Shown: in pieces, positions 7,903 through 25,408 of the stretch
Position numbering within the stretch: position 1 is the stretch's first letter
How the letters are laid out: every line of letters starts with the position of its first letter
IMG/VR virus record: IMGVR_UViG_3300042154_001017
Coordinates: 1-25,410 of that record
Origin: a virus
Length of the DNA stretch: 25,410 nucleotides
Strand: one strand, 5' to 3'
Made by a program: the position numbers and the translations under genes
Notes under the pieces: generated by a model
The model's database searches: none
Told to the model about the DNA's origin: nothing
Seen by the model: only the letters and a program-made list of their open reading frames with translations

Positions 7903-10900
7903 ATGGCTGAACTTTACGAATCCCCCAAGCAGTATATTTCCCTTGGAGGGCAATCTGGAACTGCATCTGATGCACCTCCCAGCATCGAAAGCATCATAGA
8001 TAGCCTTCCTGCGGACGAGCGTGAGGAAGCGTTAAAGTACATAACAGCCCCTCCTACTGGCGAGGAAGTAGCCAGAGCGATGGCTCAGAAGAACGCCAAT
8101 GGCGAACTGATGGACATGACCTTAGAGCAATACAGGCTCTTCAAGGCTCACCAGAAGTCCAAGGAAACAGATGTCATCGGCACGATTGGCGAAGCGGCTA
8201 GTACTGTTTTTGACGAGATTTCTAAGGCGGCTGGTTCTGTCTATGACAAGCCCGTAGACTCGATGAAGAAACTTACGCCCTCTGTAATCGAGGCGTTTGC
8301 TCAAGGCACAAGAAATCTGTACGGAATGGCGGCTCAGTCTGCCGACCCTACCAGCGTATTCTTCCGAATGAAGAACGCCTTGTTAGCCAATGGCGACGAT
8401 GAAGCGGCTGAGTACCAGCAGTTTATGGAGGCTCAAGCCTTCAATCTGCATTCAATGCGTCTGATGACTGGTCAAGATACCCTTGTCATGGACAAAGATG
8501 TCATCAACCCAGAGATGACACAGGTGATGTCCTACATTGCTGACCCCACTTTGTTTATTCCGTTTGGCGGGATTGCGGCTAAGGGTGCTACGATGATTGG
8601 CATGGGCGAGAAGTTGGCTATGGCTTCTGCCCGAACTGCGGCTATCAAGCGTAACATTATGGGTGGTGTTCTCAAGTGGGGCGTTGGTGCTCCCATTGAG
8701 TTCATGGGTACTGCCGTCAGAAACACCATTGACTACGGATTAGAGCGTAGTGCTAAGGCTTTTGAGACTGTCTCTGGCATCTCTGCCGTTGAAGCAAAGA
8801 CAACCGCACAAATGTACGGCTGGACTTCTGCGACTGCGGCTATGACAGGTGCTACAATTCCTGTTCCTATTGTCGGAGATATCGCTGGTGCGATGGTCGG
8901 CTCTACTACCGCCCGTGGCGTTGGCGAGGCTATCAGTATGTTCGGTGAGCAGATGCAAAAGCAGAAGAACATAGGTCGTGGCGTTCTTGGCTATGCTGGA
9001 CAGGCTCTCAGAGACACCAAGAAAAGCGGTGTCGTTCTCTCTAAACACGCCCAAGGATTACTTAATATCATCGAGGCTGTTGACCCGTTCTTCGCCTACG
9101 CAGACGAAATCACCGCTGGTGCTTTTCAAGGTGCGGCTATCGGTGGCGGTCTAGGTTACCTCGCTGGCGGTGAAGAAGGCATGGCTGGTGGAATCGGCTC
9201 TGGCATGGCACTCGGTGCTGTCGGTGCTGGTGCTGGTAGGCTCACCTCTGACATCACAGGCAACACGAAGATGGAGCAGATTGCCATCCAGCGTAAGTTG
9301 GTCATCGAAGGACTCAAGGACGCTGGCAACGAGAATCATGTGGCTCTTGAGGCTATGGCTATTGCGGCTGAGGCTACTGGAGACAGACGATTCCAAGCCC
9401 AGATTGACGGCATAATCGCTGGTCTGGATGTCGTGAACCCCGATGCGGTCATCAAGGCGTTCAACGAGAAAGGTTACACCGAAGCGTTAACGAGCCAAGG
9501 CATCGACCCCACAACAGGAAAACTCAGAGAGAAGTCCAGAATCTTCCCCGAACTAGGTGACAGAAGAACTATCGCTGATGTGCTTGGTATCCTCAGAGAC
9601 AACGGAGGCAACTTCTCTGGAGACCCTGCTGGTTTTGAGAAGGCTATCACAACCGAAGCCAGATACAAGAAACTGAAGCCCGTCTGGGAGCGTCTGGATG
9701 ACAACGCCAAGGCTGTCCTGCTCAAGCAGATTAAGGAAAACAGCAACCCCGACTTCATCAAGTCCCTCAAGGGCAGACAGGTCAACGCTCACTTCGGTGA
9801 CCTCGCCTATGCCGAAAGACTGGCTGAGATGATTAACACCCTTAACCAGAAGAACGCTAATCTCGTCTCTGGTAAGATTGCTGAGACCCTCAAGGCTGAG
9901 ACACGCTCCGACAAGAAACTTACCCGCAGAGGTCAGATGCTTAAGGAGAAACTCCAAGCGGATGGCTATATCGACAAGGACGGCACAATCAGAAAGTCCC
10001 GCAACATGGATGTCGAAGAGACACTTCAGACTTTTGACGCTTCTGCTGGCTGGGTAAAGCGTAGGAACTCTACAGGTCAGACTGAAATATTCATCAACCT
10101 AGATAAGTTCATGGCTAAGGGCAATCGTGAGACGATGCCCCACGAACTCTTCCACTCTGTGATGAGAGACTCGGTGTTCGCCAAGGATTACTCTGACAGA
10201 CTCATCCAGAAACTTGTCGGTACATTCGACCCGCAGACGGGCAAGATGCTTGAGAAGGCTGTCGTTGACCCGACCCAACTCCAGAAGTTCATGGAAGGCT
10301 ATATCAACAGCGTCCATAGAAACCAAAGCGAAGAATTCCGTAAACGCAAGATTGATGAACTCAAAGGTTCTATCGAGGAATACAAGAAGCGTAACGACCC
10401 TAATCGTGTCGCTGACTCTACCCAGACACCGCTTGAGCATCTTGTCGAGGAGTTCGGTGCTTACTATTTCGCCAAGTTCGTGATGGACAAGCCCGTGGAC
10501 TTCCTGTTCAGAGGTGGCGAGTACAGCGGACTCAGAGCCGTCTTTGAGACATCCAAAGAGTCGTTCCTCGACTTTTGGAAGGCTAAGATAAGCAAGGACA
10601 ACCCGTCCGTCAACTTCGATAACATCGAGGGCTATGCTCTGTCCAGAGGTTTCGGCAAGGACGGCAAGAGAGCAAAGGTCACAGCCCTAGACCTCTTGAT
10701 GCAGGACATGATTCGGATGCAGTCTAACATCAACAAGGGTGGTAGATTCGACATCAGTAACCTTTCCCCAGATGCCCGTAAGAACTTTATCCAGACGCAT
10801 GGTCTGCGTGGACAGGGCTTTGAGACCATCGACAAGGCTGGCAACTTAAAGAAGCCTAAACTCCGCAGATACACAGCCGAAGAAATCCGACAGGGCAAGG

Positions 10901-13900
10901 AGATGTTCAAGGTTCTTGACTCCCTCTCTGATGCTGACCACAGGGGTGGTATGCGTAGGGATGGTGACGGCAACTGGTCTGGTAAGCCCAACACGGCTCA
11001 GATGAACGCCCTTGTGGGTACAGGCTACCTCCAGAGAGCGTGGTTCGACAGACTTACAGCCGCCTATAACATCCTTGATGGCAAGGGTTCTAATGTGGTC
11101 GAGTTCGGCTACCTTGGATACTCTGCCCACATCGGTGACGGCAACGAGCGTGTCTATGGTGCGGCTGTGCCGTTCAAGAACAGACGGGCTATCCTGCTGG
11201 ATGTTGATTTCAAGGTTCGTGCCGATGGTACGACATTTGCCAACTTCCACACACTTGACCTCAGAGTCATCGAGGCTAGAGGCAACGAGGTCTGGCGTGA
11301 CCCGCAAGTCCGTGACCTCTGGAACGGAGACAGAACCAGCATGGAGGCTGACTTCTATGCCTACCTCAGCAACGCCTCCCTTCCGTCTGGAGACATTAAC
11401 CGCAAGCCCTCCTTCCGTCTTCTTGACAGGGGTGACGGCTTAGGCGGTCAGCGTAGAGATGCTCTGCACCAGATGCTTGGCTTCCACAAGGGTTCTGACC
11501 TTCCGTACATCAACAAGCCCATCGCTGAGATTCCTGTCGGCATCCGACACAGCGTAACGACCTTCAGTAATGACGGCATCGTGGCTATGCGTACCGCTGG
11601 CAGGGAGCGTGTGGACTACAACCACCAGAACGCCCACCTAGACCTCAGCCGTAACTTCATGCCAGATGAGTTGAGGGAAGAAAAGACACCCTCTGGAGGC
11701 AAGATTCTCAAACACGCTACTGGCTATAACATCAGCAAACAGGCTGGTGAAAAGTTCAAGGTGTTTGACCCAGAGGGCAAGATGCTTGGTGCGTTTGATA
11801 CAGTCGCTGACGCTGGTCGTGCGGCTCAGAAGCACTACAATGACACCTTCGACAAGAGCGTTGAGGGCGTTGATGCACCTGTGCCTCCGACTGAGATTCC
11901 TCCGTCTAGAGTTGCTTATTTAGACAAAAATGCTTCCAATGAATTATGGAAGTCTTTTGAAGGAGAAAAGAAAAGTGAACTAATTAGTGAACTTGATAGG
12001 TGGATAATTTCTAGCGGCAAATGGGAACAAGAAGGAGTTAACTACTCAGTTGGTGAGAGAAATAACATTAACAACACAAAGATTATTGAAAGAGTTAAGC
12101 GAGCGTTAGAAGAAAATGACACTAATGTTCCAGAAAACCTCATACACGCAATGGAAGTTGCTGTTGGAATGGGAAGACAGCGTTTATTTGAAAAGGTATT
12201 AAGAGAGGCTAAAGCAAAACTTCTTACTGAATACGACCAACTGTATCCGATGGAAATCAAGTCTGCCCTGCACCCCAGACTTGCCCAAATTTTCCAAGAC
12301 TACCCGAACCTCACAGCCCAAGGTCTTCTCAAGAAGTTAGTTGTCTACGGCTCGCAGGGTAGCAGAATGTTCCAAGAAGCCACGGAGATTGGTCTTGTTG
12401 ACTTGCTGAAGTCTAAGATTCAGAAGACCACTACGCCTAGATTCCTTGAAGATGGCACACGGATTGACATGGCACAGGGCGTTACTCAGCCTAAGTTAGA
12501 CATGACCGAAATCCTAGACTTCGCTAAGTCCAAGGAAATCAAGGTAACTATTGAGGAAGGTGCTAGGGAAAGAAGTGGAATGGACACCTCTAGGTTCACC
12601 CTTGGCGGTGCTAAGGACAACTACAAGGAGACTGCTGTAAGAATCAATCCAGAGTACGCCCACGGCATTAGCGGTCATTATGGCAAGGATACCATTGTTC
12701 ACTTCCGAACCACGGAGCGTATTGACGCTGACGGCAACAGACACCTGTTCATCGAAGAAGTACAGGCTAATAATACGGATAAAAGAAAAGTATCTGGAAG
12801 ACTTACTCCAGATAGAGAATTTATAGTTAGAAGAAATGTAAGAACTCAAAAAACACTTTATAACAAAGCAAGAGAAGAAGGAATTTATGTACAAAACAGC
12901 AATGGAGAAGGTTTTGAGACTCAAAAAACTGCGTACATAAAAGCAGGGTTATGGAATAGCGAAAAATTAAATTCTGAAATAACATTATTGTTAAAAGAAA
13001 TATTCCCGTCTCAAGGTTATGATGCCGCTATGTCAAGACAAGATGCGAGGAAAGTTTTACAGGAAGGGTTAGACCATGTGTTTACCATGATAGGTACAGC
13101 AACAAGTTTTAGCGATTTCTTAAATAGACTTGAAGCAGAAACAGAATCAGTTTTTGACAAACATTTTAAAGTTTGGAAAAAGTTACGACTTAGCGATGAA
13201 TTGTTAAATCAATTTAATACAATAAAAAAGTTTGAAGTCGAACGGCAGAAATTTTACCGAACAGAAGGAATTCAAAGTCTTATAGATGAAGGACACATAA
13301 CTAATTATACTTTAGACAATCCAGACATTATGCTTGAATCTATTCAAGACAATGAGTCGTTGATTCAATTGCATGAATTAAGTTTAAGTCAAAAAGAGCC
13401 TACTCCTTTGCCGCTTACTGCCGCTAAGGACTGGACGCTCACAGGACTCAAGGGAATCATCAGACAGGCTATCCGTGACGGCTTAGATAGGATTACGCTT
13501 ACCCACCCCGATGACAGTCCTACTGTCTCGCACATGAAGGGCGATGCTCGTAAAGGACTCTACGGCAAGTTAATTCCAGAAGTCTGGGGTGCTTGGCTTC
13601 GCAAGTACGGAATCGAGATGAAGCAGACGAACAAGTTGGCTGATGCTACCATAGACACCGCCAAGGGTCAGATGGCTGAAATTACCAACAAGTTGCATGA
13701 TGCTAACAAGGCTGTTCTTGAACACTTTGAACAGGTCGGTAACATGGAAAATCCTACTGTCATCCAGAAGGTATCTGAACTTCTTGCCATGCCCGTGCAT
13801 GAGGTCGGAAGAGACATTGAAACTGTTGTACAAAAAGCCTCCGAAGGCATAAACGATGTAAAACTTAAGGCATTAATTAATGAAGTAGGAATACTTAAGG

Positions 13901-16900
13901 GTGGCGAAAAGTATCATTACGAAAAAATTAACGAGTTAAGGACAGAAGGAATCAGAGGAACATCTAAGGCTTCTGACACAGATGCTGGAATCTCCGCTGA
14001 GGCTATCGACAGAGGGATGACCTTTGAACTAAATGACCGCATCAAGCGTGATTTCCTAGACGGCAAGATAGAGACGCACATGATGCCAGCCGAGGGCGAG
14101 CAGGGTGGGCGTACCTACACGCCAGAGCAGATGTCTGGCGAGTTTATCGGAAGATGGTCAAGTGAAGTTCCAGACCTTAAAAAAGGCTTAAAACTCTATT
14201 ATGGCAAGATTCCCTCTGGCATGGGAATGGAAGGGCTTACTCTCAGAGATAAGAAAGGCGATGTAGTTGCAAATATTAAATTTGAAAGATTTGGAGATGA
14301 AGTCGCTATTGAGAAATCTGATGTCGTTCCCAAGCACCAAGGAAAAGGATATGGCTATCTTGTGTACAGCGAACTCTTAGAAAGACTAAGAAGCGAAGGA
14401 GTTAAGACTGTTTCTGGCATGGTCATAGACAATGCCGAAAGACCTATAAAAATTAGAAAGCGTCTTATTGATGTTGAGAACAGAAGAATAGGACAAAAGG
14501 ATAACACAACAATTCTTGACGCAAGATATGATGAAGAAGGAAACAAAGAAATTGATGTAGAATCCTATCTGAAAGAAAAGGCTTGGTATCAGCCCTCCGA
14601 AGAAGACGCTTACTCTGGCGGCAGGGTCTACGACTTCAACAGCAAGGAATTCAGAACAAAGTTTATTGGCAAGTGGGCTGAAGAAAACCCAGAGCGTCTC
14701 AAAGGCTATGACCTTGAGTTCATAGACAGAGGCACTAAGTACGGCACACATAATGTACGCATTCGCTTACAAGACAATTCCACAGTTGGACAGACAGAAA
14801 ATGTCGGTCACATCACGGCTGACATAGACCCTAAGACAAAAGTTGCTTCTCTAAGTAGCAACATCGGGGCGAAGTACAGAGGCAATAAACTTTCTTACGC
14901 TCTTTATAGCGAGATGGCTGAACGCCTTCGCTCTATGGGAGTGACCAAGGTTGACGGAACTATAATCAACCCCGAAGGAATTCCCATCAAGGTTCGTGAA
15001 AGGATTATAGGCAACACAAGAGTTCTGCGTGCAGACGATTCTATTGGACTTCCAATAGACTACAAACAGGGAGCAAGAATCATACAAAGAAGACAGGCAG
15101 AAAGCGGCAACACTTGGGGCGGTCTTGATGTTGTAAACGAACTAGACCCCAAGGCTCGTTATATGCCAGCGGAGGGCGAAGAACCTATCCGTCTTTCTGG
15201 CAAGAAGAAGACAATCAGCACAAAGAAGGTAAGCACAAATCAGTTTGAAACTGAAGAGGGCATCGGTAGAACCTATAACACAGACAGCCGTAAGTGGACT
15301 AATGGTTTCATTGGTAGATACGCTGAAGAAAATCCAGACAAGGTAAAGTTCCTTAAACTCAGCATGAAAAACTGGGACGGAAGAACCGATGACTACGGCA
15401 AGCGTTCCATTGAATTAAAAAACGGAAAGAATCTCGTTGGAAGGATAGACTATGAAGTCAAGAAGGGTAGCGGAGGCAAGTGGTTGCTTTCTGACCCGAC
15501 TGTTAGGGTTGAACCTAAATACAGGGGACAAGGATATTCTAATCTTCTCTATTCAGAGATGGCTGAACGGGCGAGATTCTTAGGTGCTGAAGATTTCCTT
15601 CAGAGAATTGAAAACGAACAAGCCCTTCCCATGTATGCCCAAGTCAAGACCTTTGGCTTTGGTGAGTCTAAGTTGATTGACGCAGACAGGGGTCAGTACT
15701 TTCCTCCTACCAAGGAAAACTTTGATAAACTCAAAAAACCTTTAATCGATATTCAGAAACAGGATGGCTCTTATGAGACAATGGAGGGCTATGAACCTTG
15801 GGTTCACTCTTGGAGCAAGATATTCTCTGACAGGCATTATATGCCAGCGGAATCTTCGCTCCCTAGAAGATATGATTTAGACCAAGCAATAATTGATAAA
15901 ATAAAGCCTACATTCAAATTCCCATACAAAGAACTTACTGCAAAAGAAATGTTGCAGTTTATCATAGACAACAATGGTCATATGTCTCCGCTTGCCAATG
16001 AGTTAATATCCTCGTTGGACGAACAGGGGCTTGGTGCAAGAATAGGACAACAGACTTCTACAAAAGGAAGCAGACAAGTTGGAACGGCTGGCTGGTCGTG
16101 GCACAACTACAACCCTAGCAGAAACAGGATTCATATGCTTCTTGAGCGTAAGGTTGAGGATAAGAGAAAATACACACAGATGTCTTATGAAGAACTCATG
16201 GTTGAGGAAATCCTTCATGCTGTTACCTTGGAAAAAACACCAGAACCCATCAAGCACGGCTCTACAATTGAAGACACGCTAAAGACAGTAAATAATTTCT
16301 TAAGAAACAAAGACAAATATAAGGAACAATACAGAGAAGAATGGAAAGAAGTTGCTGGTGCTAAAGAAGAGTGGTTCACGATTGCTGATGCTTACAAGAA
16401 AGTTCATCAACAAGTAGCATCTGGTAAATACCTTGATGGTACAGAATTTACAAAACAAGAAAGACATAGCATTGATTATCGTTTAAGCAATATGGGTGAG
16501 TTTGTAATAGGAATAACTCAAACCAAGGAAATACAAAGAATTCTTTCTGACATTAAAGTTCCTAAGTCTGAAACAACATTGCTTACAAAAATACTAGATG
16601 CTATAAAGTCTATTTGGAATTTTGATGACAATGTGATGGGGTCATTGCTTGAACACACTTCTGATGCTGTTGAAAAGGTAATCAGAAGAGACAAGACACA
16701 AATGGAAAGGGCAGGGACTGGAAGATTCCCGCAACGGGCTAAAGATTACTTTGGCGGTATGCCAGAATCTAAGTATATGCCAGCGGAGGGCGAGAAGGCT
16801 CTTGTTCAGAATGGATTTGAAAAGTCTGAATTGAATAAACAACTCCTTGCATCTGGTCATATTGTGCTTGGATTCGATGAACGCACATTAGAAGGCAAGG

Positions 16901-18030
16901 CTGTTGTAATCAACAATCCAGACACGATGATGACTGGAACTCTTGAAACTCCTAGCGGAAAGATTCTTGCTGAAGGAGAAGGAGGTCTTAACTTTGTTTC
17001 TAAATTCGCAGATATCTGGGCTAACTCAAAGGAAGCCAAGGCTAGAACTACAGCCAATAAACTCAAGAAAGCCCAGAAGGAAAACGGAGGCGTTACTTAT
17101 CTGTCCCTTACCAGAGGCTCTTTCGAGAACGCCCTTAACTCGCACACGGGTGCTAAGGCTGGAATGGGAATCCTTGAGTACTTCGTTGAACAAGGTTATA
17201 TCAGTCTTGAAGAGTTCAGAAACGCCTTGAAAGATTCTGGCAGAAAGTACGGCATCGAGTTCAATGCTACTAGGTCTGCGAAAGACATTCACTCTGAGAT
17301 AGCCAACAAGTTCTTCGGAGTATCTGATTCCACTTTTGAAAGGAGAGGGGACTTTGTAAAGGATGTCATCACGCATCTCGCTGAGAACGGAGAATCTGGT
17401 CACAAGAACATAGACAAGATTGCCTCCGCACTTGGTGCTAACAGGCTTGGAAGAAAGATTCAGTTCGCTCCTACGGGCATCCGTGAGGCTATCGGTCTGA
17501 TGCTTTCTGACAAGAGGGCTAATGTTGACCCCAGCCATGTGTACGCTTACATTGAAATCACAGGAAACATTTCTGTCGAGAAGACTGAGAATGGTCATAA
17601 GAGTTATCCTTGGCACATCGTCCAGCGTGACAAGAATGGAAACAAGATTAGACCTAGGATGCTTATCCCAGACAAGACCAACTATGTCACGGATGTTTTC
17701 TTAAACAAGAACAAGCAGGAAGTTCCTCGAAAGGGTGGTGCTACTAAACTTGGTAGCAATCAAGTCGGAGAAGCCTATGGCTATGTTAAGCCAGCCGCTA
17801 ATATTCCAGAAGGCAAAGAGCGTCTAAGTTGGATGCCCGCAGAAGGCTGGCGTGACTGGCAATCTGAACGCACCTCGCTTGGCTCTGTGGTCAAGAACGC
17901 TGTCGGCTATGTCATCATGGTGCAGGGCGATAAGTTCAAGGTGTACAACCCATATAAGGCAATGGTCGGCATCTACAACGACCTAGAACAAGCCAAGCGG
18001 AGAGTCCAAAGGGACGAGCCTAAGCGATGA
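7903..18030 (+). CDS. Giant modular polyvalent virion (ejection) protein, 3375 aa
   Basis: This uninterrupted 10.1-kb gene follows a purine-rich AAAAGGGAA and occupies the slot of T7 gene 16 (1318 aa). Modules seen: Gly/Ala-rich hydrophobic stretches at about 212-265, 309-345 and 403-447; HELFH at 747-751 with EEFGAYYF at 849-856, a gluzincin-like metallopeptidase pattern; a small module at about 1266-1314; a Pro-rich linker near 1322-1345; a conserved polyvalent-protein module from about 1560 (NYKETAVRI, then HFRTTERIDADGNRHLFIEE) that resumes at about 1835-1905 after an AT-rich insertion; three GNAT-like repeats at about 2072-2620; a peptidase-like module with degraded motif EEILH (2768-2772) and SNMGEF; a further module at about 2965-3305; and a C-terminal copy of the small module. 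MPAEG-type separators start at 2061, 2421, 2647, 2959 and 3311. Such proteins are typically injected with the DNA. The catalytic roles are inferred. Confidence 0.85.
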   Translation: MAELYESPKQYISLGGQSGTASDAPPSIESIIDSLPADEREEALKYITAPPTGEEVARAMAQKNANGELMDMTLEQYRLFKAHQKSKETDVIGTIGEAASTVFDEISKAAGSVYDKPVDSMKKLTPSVIEAFAQGTRNLYGMAAQSADPTSVFFRMKNALLANGDDEAAEYQQFMEAQAFNLHSMRLMTGQDTLVMDKDVINPEMTQVMSYIADPTLFIPFGGIAAKGATMIGMGEKLAMASARTAAIKRNIMGGVLKWGVGAPIEFMGTAVRNTIDYGLERSAKAFETVSGISAVEAKTTAQMYGWTSATAAMTGATIPVPIVGDIAGAMVGSTTARGVGEAISMFGEQMQKQKNIGRGVLGYAGQALRDTKKSGVVLSKHAQGLLNIIEAVDPFFAYADEITAGAFQGAAIGGGLGYLAGGEEGMAGGIGSGMALGAVGAGAGRLTSDITGNTKMEQIAIQRKLVIEGLKDAGNENHVALEAMAIAAEATGDRRFQAQIDGIIAGLDVVNPDAVIKAFNEKGYTEALTSQGIDPTTGKLREKSRIFPELGDRRTIADVLGILRDNGGNFSGDPAGFEKAITTEARYKKLKPVWERLDDNAKAVLLKQIKENSNPDFIKSLKGRQVNAHFGDLAYAERLAEMINTLNQKNANLVSGKIAETLKAETRSDKKLTRRGQMLKEKLQADGYIDKDGTIRKSRNMDVEETLQTFDASAGWVKRRNSTGQTEIFINLDKFMAKGNRETMPHELFHSVMRDSVFAKDYSDRLIQKLVGTFDPQTGKMLEKAVVDPTQLQKFMEGYINSVHRNQSEEFRKRKIDELKGSIEEYKKRNDPNRVADSTQTPLEHLVEEFGAYYFAKFVMDKPVDFLFRGGEYSGLRAVFETSKESFLDFWKAKISKDNPSVNFDNIEGYALSRGFGKDGKRAKVTALDLLMQDMIRMQSNINKGGRFDISNLSPDARKNFIQTHGLRGQGFETIDKAGNLKKPKLRRYTAEEIRQGKEMFKVLDSLSDADHRGGMRRDGDGNWSGKPNTAQMNALVGTGYLQRAWFDRLTAAYNILDGKGSNVVEFGYLGYSAHIGDGNERVYGAAVPFKNRRAILLDVDFKVRADGTTFANFHTLDLRVIEARGNEVWRDPQVRDLWNGDRTSMEADFYAYLSNASLPSGDINRKPSFRLLDRGDGLGGQRRDALHQMLGFHKGSDLPYINKPIAEIPVGIRHSVTTFSNDGIVAMRTAGRERVDYNHQNAHLDLSRNFMPDELREEKTPSGGKILKHATGYNISKQAGEKFKVFDPEGKMLGAFDTVADAGRAAQKHYNDTFDKSVEGVDAPVPPTEIPPSRVAYLDKNASNELWKSFEGEKKSELISELDRWIISSGKWEQEGVNYSVGERNNINNTKIIERVKRALEENDTNVPENLIHAMEVAVGMGRQRLFEKVLREAKAKLLTEYDQLYPMEIKSALHPRLAQIFQDYPNLTAQGLLKKLVVYGSQGSRMFQEATEIGLVDLLKSKIQKTTTPRFLEDGTRIDMAQGVTQPKLDMTEILDFAKSKEIKVTIEEGARERSGMDTSRFTLGGAKDNYKETAVRINPEYAHGISGHYGKDTIVHFRTTERIDADGNRHLFIEEVQANNTDKRKVSGRLTPDREFIVRRNVRTQKTLYNKAREEGIYVQNSNGEGFETQKTAYIKAGLWNSEKLNSEITLLLKEIFPSQGYDAAMSRQDARKVLQEGLDHVFTMIGTATSFSDFLNRLEAETESVFDKHFKVWKKLRLSDELLNQFNTIKKFEVERQKFYRTEGIQSLIDEGHITNYTLDNPDIMLESIQDNESLIQLHELSLSQKEPTPLPLTAAKDWTLTGLKGIIRQAIRDGLDRITLTHPDDSPTVSHMKGDARKGLYGKLIPEVWGAWLRKYGIEMKQTNKLADATIDTAKGQMAEITNKLHDANKAVLEHFEQVGNMENPTVIQKVSELLAMPVHEVGRDIETVVQKASEGINDVKLKALINEVGILKGGEKYHYEKINELRTEGIRGTSKASDTDAGISAEAIDRGMTFELNDRIKRDFLDGKIETHMMPAEGEQGGRTYTPEQMSGEFIGRWSSEVPDLKKGLKLYYGKIPSGMGMEGLTLRDKKGDVVANIKFERFGDEVAIEKSDVVPKHQGKGYGYLVYSELLERLRSEGVKTVSGMVIDNAERPIKIRKRLIDVENRRIGQKDNTTILDARYDEEGNKEIDVESYLKEKAWYQPSEEDAYSGGRVYDFNSKEFRTKFIGKWAEENPERLKGYDLEFIDRGTKYGTHNVRIRLQDNSTVGQTENVGHITADIDPKTKVASLSSNIGAKYRGNKLSYALYSEMAERLRSMGVTKVDGTIINPEGIPIKVRERIIGNTRVLRADDSIGLPIDYKQGARIIQRRQAESGNTWGGLDVVNELDPKARYMPAEGEEPIRLSGKKKTISTKKVSTNQFETEEGIGRTYNTDSRKWTNGFIGRYAEENPDKVKFLKLSMKNWDGRTDDYGKRSIELKNGKNLVGRIDYEVKKGSGGKWLLSDPTVRVEPKYRGQGYSNLLYSEMAERARFLGAEDFLQRIENEQALPMYAQVKTFGFGESKLIDADRGQYFPPTKENFDKLKKPLIDIQKQDGSYETMEGYEPWVHSWSKIFSDRHYMPAESSLPRRYDLDQAIIDKIKPTFKFPYKELTAKEMLQFIIDNNGHMSPLANELISSLDEQGLGARIGQQTSTKGSRQVGTAGWSWHNYNPSRNRIHMLLERKVEDKRKYTQMSYEELMVEEILHAVTLEKTPEPIKHGSTIEDTLKTVNNFLRNKDKYKEQYREEWKEVAGAKEEWFTIADAYKKVHQQVASGKYLDGTEFTKQERHSIDYRLSNMGEFVIGITQTKEIQRILSDIKVPKSETTLLTKILDAIKSIWNFDDNVMGSLLEHTSDAVEKVIRRDKTQMERAGTGRFPQRAKDYFGGMPESKYMPAEGEKALVQNGFEKSELNKQLLASGHIVLGFDERTLEGKAVVINNPDTMMTGTLETPSGKILAEGEGGLNFVSKFADIWANSKEAKARTTANKLKKAQKENGGVTYLSLTRGSFENALNSHTGAKAGMGILEYFVEQGYISLEEFRNALKDSGRKYGIEFNATRSAKDIHSEIANKFFGVSDSTFERRGDFVKDVITHLAENGESGHKNIDKIASALGANRLGRKIQFAPTGIREAIGLMLSDKRANVDPSHVYAYIEITGNISVEKTENGHKSYPWHIVQRDKNGNKIRPRMLIPDKTNYVTDVFLNKNKQEVPRKGGATKLGSNQVGEAYGYVKPAANIPEGKERLSWMPAEGWRDWQSERTSLGSVVKNAVGYVIMVQGDKFKVYNPYKAMVGIYNDLEQAKRRVQRDEPKR
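10141..10470 (+). other. HELFH metallopeptidase-like module inside the giant gene
   Basis: Residues 747-751 read HELFH in the context ETMPHELFHSVM, an HExxH zinc-binding helix with the surrounding hydrophobics expected. About 97 residues later EHLVEEFGAYYF (845-856) offers a Glu that could be the third ligand, as in gluzincins. Unlike the later EEILH module, all expected ligands are present here. Activity is inferred, not shown. Confidence 0.6.
11659..11847 (+). repeat. Internal copy of the C-terminal module (MPDE + GYxIxxxxxKFKVxxP)
   Basis: Residues 1253-1315 start with MPDE and continue ATGYNISKQAGEKFKVFDPE, then GKMLGAFDTVADAGRAAQKHY. This parallels the very end of the protein (residues 3311-3375), which starts MPAEG and continues NAVGYVIMVQGDKFKVYNPY, then KAMVGIYNDLEQAKRRV. 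Both copies share the same order: separator, GY strand, FKV strand, small turn, G strand, then an amphipathic helix. Confidence 0.7.
12770..13395 (+). other. AT-rich insertion within a conserved module of the giant gene
   Basis: Lines starting at 12781, 12841 and 13201 contain 17, 18 and 16 G+C per 60 bases (27-30%), against 31 and 29 per 60 in flanking lines at 12661 and 13441 (48-52%). The change occurs just after the strand ending FIEEVQA and ends before AAKDWTLTGLKGIIRQA, two parts that belong to one module in related polyvalent proteins as I recall them. The insert encodes about 208 lysine- and glutamate-rich residues with no recognised motif, and the reading frame is kept. Confidence 0.65.
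14080..17847 (+). repeat. Dispersed MPAEG separator motifs
   Basis: The motif occurs at 14083 (MPAEGEQ), 15163 (YMPAEGEE), 15841 (YMPAESS), 16777 (YMPAEGEK) and 17833 (WMPAEGW). Degenerate relatives are MPDE at 11659 and YQPSEE at 14587-14604. The DNA tatatgccagcggagggcga is identical at 15160-15179 and 16774-16793, and its first 14 bases recur at 15838-15851. Each occurrence sits at the border of a recognisable module, so it behaves as a linker or joint rather than part of a fold. Confidence 0.8.
14116..15690 (+). repeat. Three consecutive GNAT-like acetyltransferase repeats
   Basis: Each unit opens with Y, then FIGRW or FIGKW or FIGRY, then an acidic E.P segment, several beta strands, and an acetyl-CoA-loop-like helix followed by LYSE(M/L)(A/L)ER. 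Units start near residues 2072, 2243 and 2458. Loop motifs are QGKGYG (2146-2151), RGNKLS (2326-2331) and RGQGYS (2541-2546). The Q/RxxGxG/A consensus is intact in units one and three and degraded in unit two. Units are diverged, so this is an old triplication or repeated acquisition. Confidence 0.7.
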
Positions 18031-22124: not shown

Positions 22125-22916
22125 TTAGAAGGGGACTTCGTCTTGGGTGGCAGTCGGAGGCTCGATGTCTCCGTTGGCGATAGCCCAGAGGCGTTCAGCC
22201 TCAGCCTTGACACGGAGGTCACGGGGGCTGATTTCGGTGTTGTCACCGAAGGGCTTGGGCTTCCAGACATTGGCGAAGTAGTTGAGGTCACCGAACTTGA
22301 CGCTTCGGTCAGCGGACTTCAGCGGGAGTTGAGACAGGGGAGTTCCCTTGAGGTCTCCGAAAGGAGCAACGGCTTCACCGCTAGCGGAGGGCTTGGCAGT
22401 AGGGTTAGGAATGAACTTTGTTCCAGAAGCAGTCGGCTTCGTTTCGAGTTTAACATACTCCTTCTTAGGAGCAGACTTAACCACTCGGTCGGATTCCGCA
22501 TCATCATCCTCAGTTGCGATTCCAGCAATGGAAGCAAGGCTGTATCTACGGACATAAGAATACAGGCTACCTGCTTGCTGACCAGACATACCCTTCTCAG
22601 CAGGGACGATAGCGTTGCACGAAAGCATACCTCCGTCTTCGTGGATGATGATGTTGCGGATACCAACGCCATCGATGTCACCGATGGGCATCTGGATGAT
22701 GGCAAGTCCGTGCTTCTTAGCAAGGGGCTTAAGGGCAATGAGGTGGGCTTGGAGGCTGGCATAGCGTGACTTGTGGAAGGGATTGTCGCTGTCAGCGTGG
22801 ACATCTTGGGCTTCAGAAACGAAGGCTACGAGAGCCTTGATGAGACTGACTTGTTGTTCGGGGGTGTTGTCGTGCATTTTGGTGGGATTGTAGGTGAAGA
22901 GTGAATCGGTGAACAT
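22125..22916 (-). CDS. erf: ERF-family single-strand annealing protein
   Basis: The 263-aa protein has an ERF-like core: EQQVSLIKALVAFVSEAQDV, KSRYASLQAHLIALKPLAKKHGL, then the signature QQAGSLYSYVRRYSLASIAG followed by IATEDDDAE (residues about 113-141). ERF proteins bind single strands and anneal them in phage recombination. The C-terminal half is Pro/Ser/Lys-rich and flexible, ending DEVPF, which mimics the acidic tip (DDIPF) of single-strand binding proteins. The true start may be the second Met (22877), because ERF homology begins just after it and a promoter-like TTGACA lies upstream of 22916. Partners may be the PD-(D/E)XK-like nuclease and host repair proteins. Confidence 0.85.
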   Translation of the reverse strand: MFTDSLFTYNPTKMHDNTPEQQVSLIKALVAFVSEAQDVHADSDNPFHKSRYASLQAHLIALKPLAKKHGLAIIQMPIGDIDGVGIRNIIIHEDGGMLSCNAIVPAEKGMSGQQAGSLYSYVRRYSLASIAGIATEDDDAESDRVVKSAPKKEYVKLETKPTASGTKFIPNPTAKPSASGEAVAPFGDLKGTPLSQLPLKSADRSVKFGDLNYFANVWKPKPFGDNTEISPRDLRVKAEAERLWAIANGDIEPPTATQDEVPF

Positions 22917-23634: not shown

Positions 23635-24309
23635 TCAACCGACCCCTACAGCCCTGTAGTAATCCTTTAATCTGCGGATTAGGGCAACGCCCGTCTCCTT
23701 GTCACGATTGTCGAATCGCTCCAGAAGGGTAGAGCCGTTGAAGTTCGTGCTGATGACAGTAGCCCTACGGCTGGTGCTACGCTCGTCCACGATGGCGAAG
23801 AGGTCGGAAGCCATACGCTGGGTCAGACGCTCCTTGCCGAAGTCATCGAGGATGAGCAGGGGGCAGGAGATAAGGTAATCGATAGCAGAGCCGTGCTTGC
23901 GGTCTTCAAAGCCCTTCTCGATTACAGTTTCAAGTTTCCTCATCGTGAGGAATTCAAAGTTAAGTTGCTTGTCCTTCTTGGTCTCCTCAGCCCAGAGACG
24001 CTTGATGATTTCCCAGATGCCACGGGTCTTGCCCACGCCTGTCGTGCCGTGCAGGAGGAGTCCAGAGACATCCCCTTCGGGCTTCCAATCCAGAGCCGTC
24101 TGAATCTTGGGGTGCAGGCGGGTGACATCCGTATCTAGGAAAATCTGGGGGATGGTCGGAGGGACAGTCGAGTCAATCAGCCCAGCGTGGGCTACTCGCT
24201 CCTTGTCCAGATGCTCACGGCAATGATGCCAGCGAACCAACTTCAGAGAGCCATCGTTCTTGGCGAACAACGCACCCCTGCGTCCACAATGACAGGCAAT
24301 CTCGCTCAC
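23635..24309 (-). CDS. dnaC: DnaC/IstB-like AAA+ helicase loader
   Basis: The 224-aa protein starts with GTG in a GTGA overlap with the preceding gene. Motifs: a possible zinc-binding N-terminus (CHC at 6-8 and HHCREH at 28-33), Walker A GTTGVGKT (88-95), Walker B LLILDDFGKE (151-160), sensor-1-like ISTNF (186-190) and a conserved Arg pair in ALIRRL (209-214). These are the hallmarks of DnaC-type loaders that place a replicative helicase at an origin. Its place beside an initiator with origin-like repeats supports a replication-initiation module. No replicative helicase lies in the window, so the partner is host DnaB or a phage gene outside. The symbol is by family, not by proven orthology. 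Confidence 0.85.
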   Translation of the reverse strand: MSEIACHCGRRGALFAKNDGSLKLVRWHHCREHLDKERVAHAGLIDSTVPPTIPQIFLDTDVTRLHPKIQTALDWKPEGDVSGLLLHGTTGVGKTRGIWEIIKRLWAEETKKDKQLNFEFLTMRKLETVIEKGFEDRKHGSAIDYLISCPLLILDDFGKERLTQRMASDLFAIVDERSTSRRATVISTNFNGSTLLERFDNRDKETGVALIRRLKDYYRAVGVG

Positions 24310-24709: not shown

Positions 24710-25408
24710 TCAGAATGCTTCGTGGTCTCTGGCAGTCAAGACATTTGTATTACCTTTGCCAAATACTTGCTTAGGTTCAAACAGACCCTGCCAGCCTTGC
24801 TTGATGGACTGCTCGATGCTGGCGATGGACTTGGCTTCGCCCCACAGGACGAACTCCTTGCATTGAGCCTGTACGCTGGAGTCGGTGAGGGTCTTCTTCA
24901 TCTCCTTGCGATAGACCACCCAAGACCTCCAAGCCTTGAGGAAAGCCTCAGAGCCAAAGGGCAAACGAGTAATCCAAATCTGCTGTTGGACTGTATCTTT
25001 ATCCCCTTTATTATCTTCTTTATTATATGTATGCGGTTTTCCGCATCCCCCCCGTGCGGTTTTCTTCACCCCCCCCGTGCGGTTTTCCGCATCCCCCTCT
25101 GAACGGGTGACCTGTGTGCTTGCCAGAGCATCCTGTAAAGCAACTTTCTCGACTGTGCGGATGACCCTGTGACCCTCGCAGGCTACCCTGCGGATGAGCC
25201 TAGCGTCCTCAAGTTCAGACAGGATGGTCTGTAGTTGACGCACAGATAGCCCTAGGTGGCGGGATAGGTAGGCGTTTGAGGCAAAGCACCCCTCCTCGTT
25301 GTCGAGGGCATCTACGACCCCGTAGACCACCTTAGCCGTTAGGCTGATGGTAGGGGTCTGGAACACCCCAGCAGGAATCCAGACTCCCGTGAACTTAGGT
25401 TCGCTCAT
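24710..25408 (-). CDS. Replication initiator protein with winged helix (lambda O-like arrangement)
   Basis: The 232-aa protein starts at ATG 25408-25406, 2 bases inside the window. Residues about 20-75 form a winged helix-turn-helix (SLTAKVVYGVVDALDN, then ASNAYLSRHLGLSVRQLQTI, then LSELEDARLIRR). Residues about 99-140 are a hydrophilic linker containing GG, RGGCGKPH and NKEDNKGDKD; this linker is where the DNA repeats lie. The C-terminal part (AFLKAWRSWVVYRKEMKKTL) is helical and may contact the loader. Phage initiators with an N-terminal DNA-binding and a C-terminal loader-contact domain include lambda O. Adjacent helicase-loader gene and internal iterons support this. Sequence identity to O is not claimed. 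Confidence 0.8.
   Translation of the reverse strand: MSEPKFTGVWIPAGVFQTPTISLTAKVVYGVVDALDNEEGCFASNAYLSRHLGLSVRQLQTILSELEDARLIRRVACEGHRVIRTVEKVALQDALASTQVTRSEGDAENRTGGVKKTARGGCGKPHTYNKEDNKGDKDTVQQQIWITRLPFGSEAFLKAWRSWVVYRKEMKKTLTDSSVQAQCKEFVLWGEAKSIASIEQSIKQGWQGLFEPKQVFGKGNTNVLTARDHEAF
25006..25030. other. AT-rich tract next to the iterons, candidate unwinding element
   Basis: The run is 20 of 25 A or T, with a direct repeat CTTTATTAT at 25006-25014 and 25018-25026. It encodes the flexible NKEDNK part of the initiator linker and adjoins the three iteron-like repeats. That placement is where a DNA unwinding element would lie in an iteron origin. Confidence 0.55.
25032..25100. repeat. Three tandem 23-bp iteron-like repeats (putative replication origin)
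   Basis: Repeats start at 25032, 25055 and 25078, exactly 23 bases apart. The core on the plus strand is TGCGGTTTTCCGCATCCCCC in copies one and three; copy two has TGCGGTTTTCTTCA before its C-run. Copy one contains the inverted repeat ATGCGG-TTTT-CCGCAT (25031-25046), and copy three keeps its TGCGG-TTTT-CCGCA core. Because 23 is not a multiple of 3, the same DNA is read in all three frames inside the initiator gene, so conservation is at DNA level, not protein level. This is the arrangement of lambda-type iterons in the O gene. Confidence 0.75.

Follow-up and report, generated by a model that had tools for sequence, protein, structure and literature searches.

A phased palindrome array inside an HTH_36-type phage initiator gene: a probable replication origin with half-sites that co-vary with the recognition helix

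In this study, we analysed 25,410 nucleotides of viral DNA (IMG/VR record IMGVR_UViG_3300042154_001017, positions 1 to 25,410; this whole stretch is called the window) and found that the linker-coding part of a replication initiator gene carries three phased palindromes beside an AT-rich tract. In a comparison that covered about a hundred related phages, the geometry of this array, its AT-rich neighbour and the order of the genes around it were conserved, and the letters of the palindromes changed together with residues of the recognition helix of the initiator. We believe that the array very likely forms the iterons of a phage origin of replication that lies inside the gene of its own initiator, where the winged-helix domain (wHTH) would bind, the AT tract would open and the helicase would be loaded. 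Origins inside initiator genes are already known; the new part, as read from the compared sequences, is a readable recognition code. Neither a geometry that stays constant across HTH_36 initiators while the letters change nor a residue-to-base code was found in the open-licence literature, and an earlier description is possible.

The array and the gene that carries it

The array consists of three 23-nt copies, which start at 25032, 25055 and 25078, span 25032-25100 and are 87-91% identical to each other. Within each unit lies a palindrome of 14 bp, in which two 5-bp arms flank a 4-bp centre of A and T (core TGCGG-TTTT-CCGCA, 5-4-5). Read along the gene strand, the three units begin in frames 2, 1 and 0, so that the same 14-mer gives different peptides (A-ENRT, VKKTAR and CGKPHT). 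An earlier note on this DNA had described three repeats with a 23-bp period that ignores the reading frame and an inverted-repeat core kept in two copies, and this description agrees with our results, as the outer units are perfect and the middle unit carries two changes. The AT-rich tract with its own direct repeat, also reported there, starts at the array edge and contains the 12-bp repeat CTTTATTAT at 25006-25014 and 25018-25026. The features are listed in Table 1.

Table 1. Coordinates in the window of the initiator locus and the array
Feature	Position	Strand	Remark
Initiator gene, 232 aa	24710..25408	-	N-terminal winged helix, disordered linker, C-terminal helical domain
Recognition helix of wHTH (aa 56-68), specificity residues R57, Q60, T61	25205..25243	-	AlphaFold2 secondary structure and co-variation
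Linker-coding stretch (aa 98-142)	24983..25117	-	contains array and AT-rich tract; predicted disordered, pLDDT <50
C-terminal helical domain (about aa 143-212)	24773..24982	-	putative contact to loader or replisome
Iteron 1 (gene order)	25078..25091	.	perfect 5-4-5 palindrome
Iteron 2 (gene order)	25055..25068	.	5-4-5 palindrome, two changes within one arm
Iteron 3 (gene order)	25032..25045	.	perfect 5-4-5 palindrome, adjoins AT-rich tract; best-conserved unit among relatives
Spacer	25046..25054	.	homopolymeric C/G tract (G-run on gene strand)
Spacer	25069..25077	.	homopolymeric C/G tract (G-run on gene strand)
AT-rich tract, putative unwinding element	24987..25031	.	45 bp, 27% G+C vs 54% for gene
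DnaC/IstB-like helicase loader	23635..24309	-	phrog_50 E 3e-18
Erf-like single-strand annealing protein	22125..22916	-	member of same conserved module

When every start in the window was scanned with a three-palindrome score (5-4-5, spacing of 21-23 bp), the array reached 28/30, an overlapping register of the same array reached 24, and independent sites reached 23 at most. The palindrome pattern with up to three mismatches matched six times in the window, compared with 1.9 ± 1.3 matches in shuffles, and none of 100 shuffles reached six. An extra perfect 5-4-5 palindrome (TGAGG-CTTT-CCTCA, 24937-24950) lies 95 bp away from the array, where the gene codes for the C-terminal part, and is probably due to chance.

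The host gene had been taken for a winged-helix initiator, and the profile searches support this. The winged helix occupies the first 90 residues and matches Pfam HTH_36 (PF13730) with an E value of 1e-8 and 35.1 bits against a gathering cut-off of 25, which distant relatives likewise pass. Residues 17-222 match PHROG 678 (phrog_678, "replication initiation O-like") with an E value of 4.7e-21. The AlphaFold2 model (mean pLDDT 68) places the recognition helix at residues 56-68 and the wing at residues 72-85. The repeats lie in the linker as had been proposed, since the array codes for amino acids within the predicted disordered residues 98-142. In a structural search with the wHTH, the top PDB matches were the RepA_N initiators 4pql, 4pt7, 5kbj and 4pta (Z 8.0-9.0, rmsd 2.0-2.7 over 78-81 residues). 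Because a Z near 8 may reflect a common fold alone, this match was taken as a lead. A structure search by sequence profile gave no solved relative of the initiator, the RepA_N profile (PF06970) gave no match to the window protein at E 0.1, and Phage_rep_O (PF04492), for which lambda O itself scores 123 bits, was absent among its Pfam matches. The initiator protein found one weak match in a plasmid search.

The nearby DnaC-like loader gene was confirmed. Among relatives with a long enough locus, nearly all have both the loader and Erf downstream of the initiator. Elsewhere in the window (7903-18030, + strand), an ORF of 3375 aa contains recurring YMPAEG-like motifs and a metallopeptidase-like motif, HELFH, and resembles a giant phage polyvalent protein.

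Geometry and half-sites among relatives

The relatives were 34 close ones from IMG/VR, then 80 IMG/VR loci obtained by profile search (partly from the same contigs); a further five came from bacterial genomes. The pattern of three palindromes at 22-23 bp spacing with ~45 bp of AT-rich sequence behind them is found again in relatives with protein identities as low as about 26-36%. The earlier note had named conservation of the period in close relatives as a check, and three units at 22-23 bp spacing are kept by nearly all intact relatives. Among 61 counted relatives, the spacings 22+23, 23+23, 22+22 and 21+21 occur 38, 21, 1 and 1 times, respectively. The three-palindrome fit of the relatives was mostly 24-30/30, compared with an average of ~20, rarely above 23, in 20 shuffles per sequence; some distant relatives have no clean three-unit fit. 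The first 45 nt past the array have a mean G+C of 0.26-0.31 against about 0.4-0.6 around them. Unit 3, next to the AT tract, showed 30 deviations from the consensus, compared with 58 and 75 for the other units.

When IMG/VR was searched for sequences with two exact copies of the window 14-mer, only three near relatives were returned, so the window sequence is not widespread, whereas the geometry is. The 14-mer was found in no paper of the open-licence literature searched. The half-site arms vary by lineage (TGCGG, GGCAA, TGCAA or TGCAG, GGAAA, GCCGA, GGATG and others; AGCTG or CCCTG in distant relatives), and the change is concerted, with the six half-sites of an array switching together between lineages. 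The window and relative L046 share 97% of the C-terminal domain and 74% of the N-terminal part, and their half-sites are TGCGG and GGCAA, respectively; judged from such sequences, the two parts of the initiator recombine.

The array spacers are G-runs, or C-runs in other lineages. In L083, L091-L096, L102 and L104-L111, a C-run stands on the gene strand instead of the G-run, with position and length kept. Whatever the frame, runs of either kind would encode Gly or Pro, residues that would suit a flexible linker.

The number of units also varies. A strict reading-frame lock on three copies was considered and rejected: among 90 arrays with a good fit, 14 probably have an additional unit, so three-copy locking is at most a tendency. 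In L080 (same contig as L032) and L101, a single palindrome unit remains and the frame is shifted, as after the loss of two units; this is either a real deletion or a collapsed assembly. The initiator linkers of L122, L265 and L284 (one Bacteroidetes MAG and two viral contigs) contain arrays spaced by 21 bp, which are read in a single frame because 21 is a multiple of three.

Co-variation of the recognition helix with the half-sites

In an unbiased scan, 88 protein positions (3-90) were ranked for each half-site base by mutual information against permutations. The best predictors of bases 1, 2 and 5 were residues 60 (z 21.7, next 8.5), 57 (z 14.8) and 61 (z 10.1), respectively. All three residues are in the predicted recognition helix, mutually within about one turn. 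First-set sequences with R or K at residue 60 had G at base 1 in 27/27 cases, and those with Q60 had T (24) or C (3). The usual contacts of Arg with G and of Gln with A agree with these pairings.

On the best tree, built without the recognition helix and the linker, residue 60 and base 1 change 11 times each, in step, and only 2 of these contrasts are on strongly supported branches. The relatives recombine and are hence not independent, and helix and array can move together by recombination. Because of the few supported contrasts and this recombination, the rules were fixed and a second set was then fetched with other queries, which gave 41 new sequences with a good array fit. In this held-out set, R/K60 went with G1 in 19/19 cases and Q60 with T1 in 6/6, and G2 was found in 20/20 sequences with R57, compared with 1/21 without it. 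Among held-out sequences that shared less than 80% identity with the first set and with one another, the counts for R/K60-G1, Q60-T1 and R57-G2 were 6/6, 4/4 and 8/8, respectively, and below 60% identity they were 2/2, 2/2 and 4/4, respectively. The pairing of residue 61 with base 5 was less clear in the held-out data, where N61 occurred with A in 13 cases and with G in 7 (13/20), and this link appears weak. Since the half-sites co-vary with recognition-helix residues, the initiator very probably binds the palindrome array.

Binding model, origin reading and alternatives

In the mechanism we propose, the winged-helix domain would bind every one of the 14-bp palindromes. The simplest arrangement would be a pair with two-fold symmetry, in which each 5-bp half-site receives one recognition helix. 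The G at base 2 would be read by Arg57. At base 1, residue 60 would read G:C when it is Arg or Lys and T:A when it is Gln, and the inner half-site bases may be influenced by residue 61. Three bound units at a pitch of ~23 bp would strain and open the adjoining 45-bp AT-rich tract, and the C-terminal domain and the neighbouring DnaC-like loader would put the host helicase onto the opened tract. The linker peptide would mostly be a by-product of the array DNA; as the linker need only be flexible, the DNA could be kept for binding in any frame.

From the AT-rich tract and the neighbouring helicase loader, and by analogy with lambda O, pSK41 RepA_N and pPR9, we infer that the array functions as an origin at which dimer binding, unwinding, helicase loading and the start of replication would take place. 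The phased array, the AT tract on a fixed side, the best-conserved unit 3 and the nearby loader gene all point to an origin, as does the same in-gene location in lambda and pSK41 (PMC7466680, PMC5043065, PMC5703833). Iteron origins are built in this way as a standard, from a phased array and a neighbouring AT tract (PMC5043065). Cumulative GC skew in four near-complete relatives gave no consistent signal: the array was close to the maximum in three of them but distant in the fourth.

The earlier note had likened this arrangement to the lambda design. As a way of working, the comparison holds (iterons inside O, with the AT tract next to them), but as sequence homology it fails, since BLASTP between lambda O and the window initiator detected no similarity (E 6.8) and Phage_rep_O is missing. 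In both phages, the initiator gene contains frame-independent iterons, which have inverted repeats around a centre rich in A (PMC7466680, PMC5043065), and a helicase-loader gene follows downstream. Lambda has four iterons inside O, with starts 20, 24 and 23 bp apart, followed by the AT tract (PMC7466680, PMC5043065). The lambda iterons measure 18-19 bp, whereas the three in the window measure 14 bp; lambda O contains Pfam Phage_rep_O, whereas the window protein contains HTH_36; and the loader is P in lambda but DnaC/IstB-like in the window.

The RepA_N plasmid design, in which rep itself contains the origin, is no more distant than that of lambda. The RepA_N initiators of pSK41 and pTZ2162 have an N-terminal winged helix, the best structural match to the window wHTH (Z 8.0-9.0), and a central linker coded by the origin, with inverted-repeat iterons around an A tract (PMC5703833, PMC7145576). 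In contrast to the window protein, they belong to Pfam RepA_N, their plasmids have four Rep boxes, and their C-terminal domain contacts DnaG (PMC5703833). Judged from the model, the window wHTH and RepA_N would share the fold only. A further likeness is found in the hybrid Rep of the pPR9/pUSA03 type, in which a pSK41 C-terminal domain is joined to the Pfam domain that the window protein also has (PF13730, HTH_36) (PMC5703833). For example, pPR9 differs from pSK41 only in a segment of about 500 bp that includes the N-terminal domain and the origin, which were exchanged together, and pPR9 with the HTH_36 (pfam13730) domain replicates and is compatible with a pSK41 replicon (PMC5703833). pPR9 is, however, a staphylococcal plasmid with a different C-terminal domain, and it is likened to the window by the exchange of domain and origin.

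The main rival is that the palindromes are an operator only, through which the initiator autoregulates its own operon while the true origin is elsewhere; we regard this as unlikely. Many initiators autoregulate, the co-variation speaks for binding rather than for initiation, and GC skew does not mark the array. However, the array is ~320 bp inside the gene rather than at a promoter, and the sole nearby promoter-like site is at chance level. The array is also tied to the 45-bp AT-rich tract across relatives, a combination that is standard in iteron origins (PMC5043065), and the lambda and pSK41 origins occupy the same place in the gene.

It is very improbable that the repeats are RNA or single-stranded DNA hairpins for translation or transcription control or for priming, with the palindromes kept for base pairing. 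The mRNA stretch does fold better than shuffles (z -3.0), and the palindromic pairs are mostly kept. However, pairs 2-5 show no G-T preference (17/110 non-Watson-Crick pairs, about the chance share), and the G-T excess at pair 1 (20/39) is explained by T-to-C changes in Q60 lineages. Upkeep of a stem would not make its letters track recognition-helix residues, as they do. There is no U-run 3' of the array on the gene strand, and terminator-like sites are not above the shuffle level. The hairpin and terminator readings were set aside on these grounds.

That the array is a recent tandem duplication of functionless DNA in a tolerant linker is hardly credible: linkers do tolerate repeats and the window copies are 87-91% alike, but the relatives already refute it, as their units stay palindromic and co-vary with the protein, and the same spacing with different half-sites at 35-89% identity means that the array is neither recent nor drifting.

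Beyond the origin reading, we tentatively suggest that the winged helix and the array may form a portable specificity cassette, in which a few helix residues would spell the origin by a simple code across the HTH_36 group, and which phages might swap or retune against cross-recognition. The pitch may contribute: 22-23 bp is not a multiple of three, so losing one or two units shifts the frame, which would help to hold three copies. From the residue-to-base pairing follows a concrete model of binding for HTH_36 initiators, including plasmid hybrids in which domain and origin moved together, and how replicons acquire new compatibility could be turned into a direct binding test with natural variants. 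In uncultured phages, the origin could be located, and its sequence partly predicted, from the initiator protein alone.

Two cultured phages, Pseudomonas phage Cruim01 (L040) and Oceanospirillum phage GJ44 (L041), have related initiator genes with linker repeats spaced by 22-23 bp, and GJ44 also carries a TATAACAAAGAAGATAACAAAG tract.
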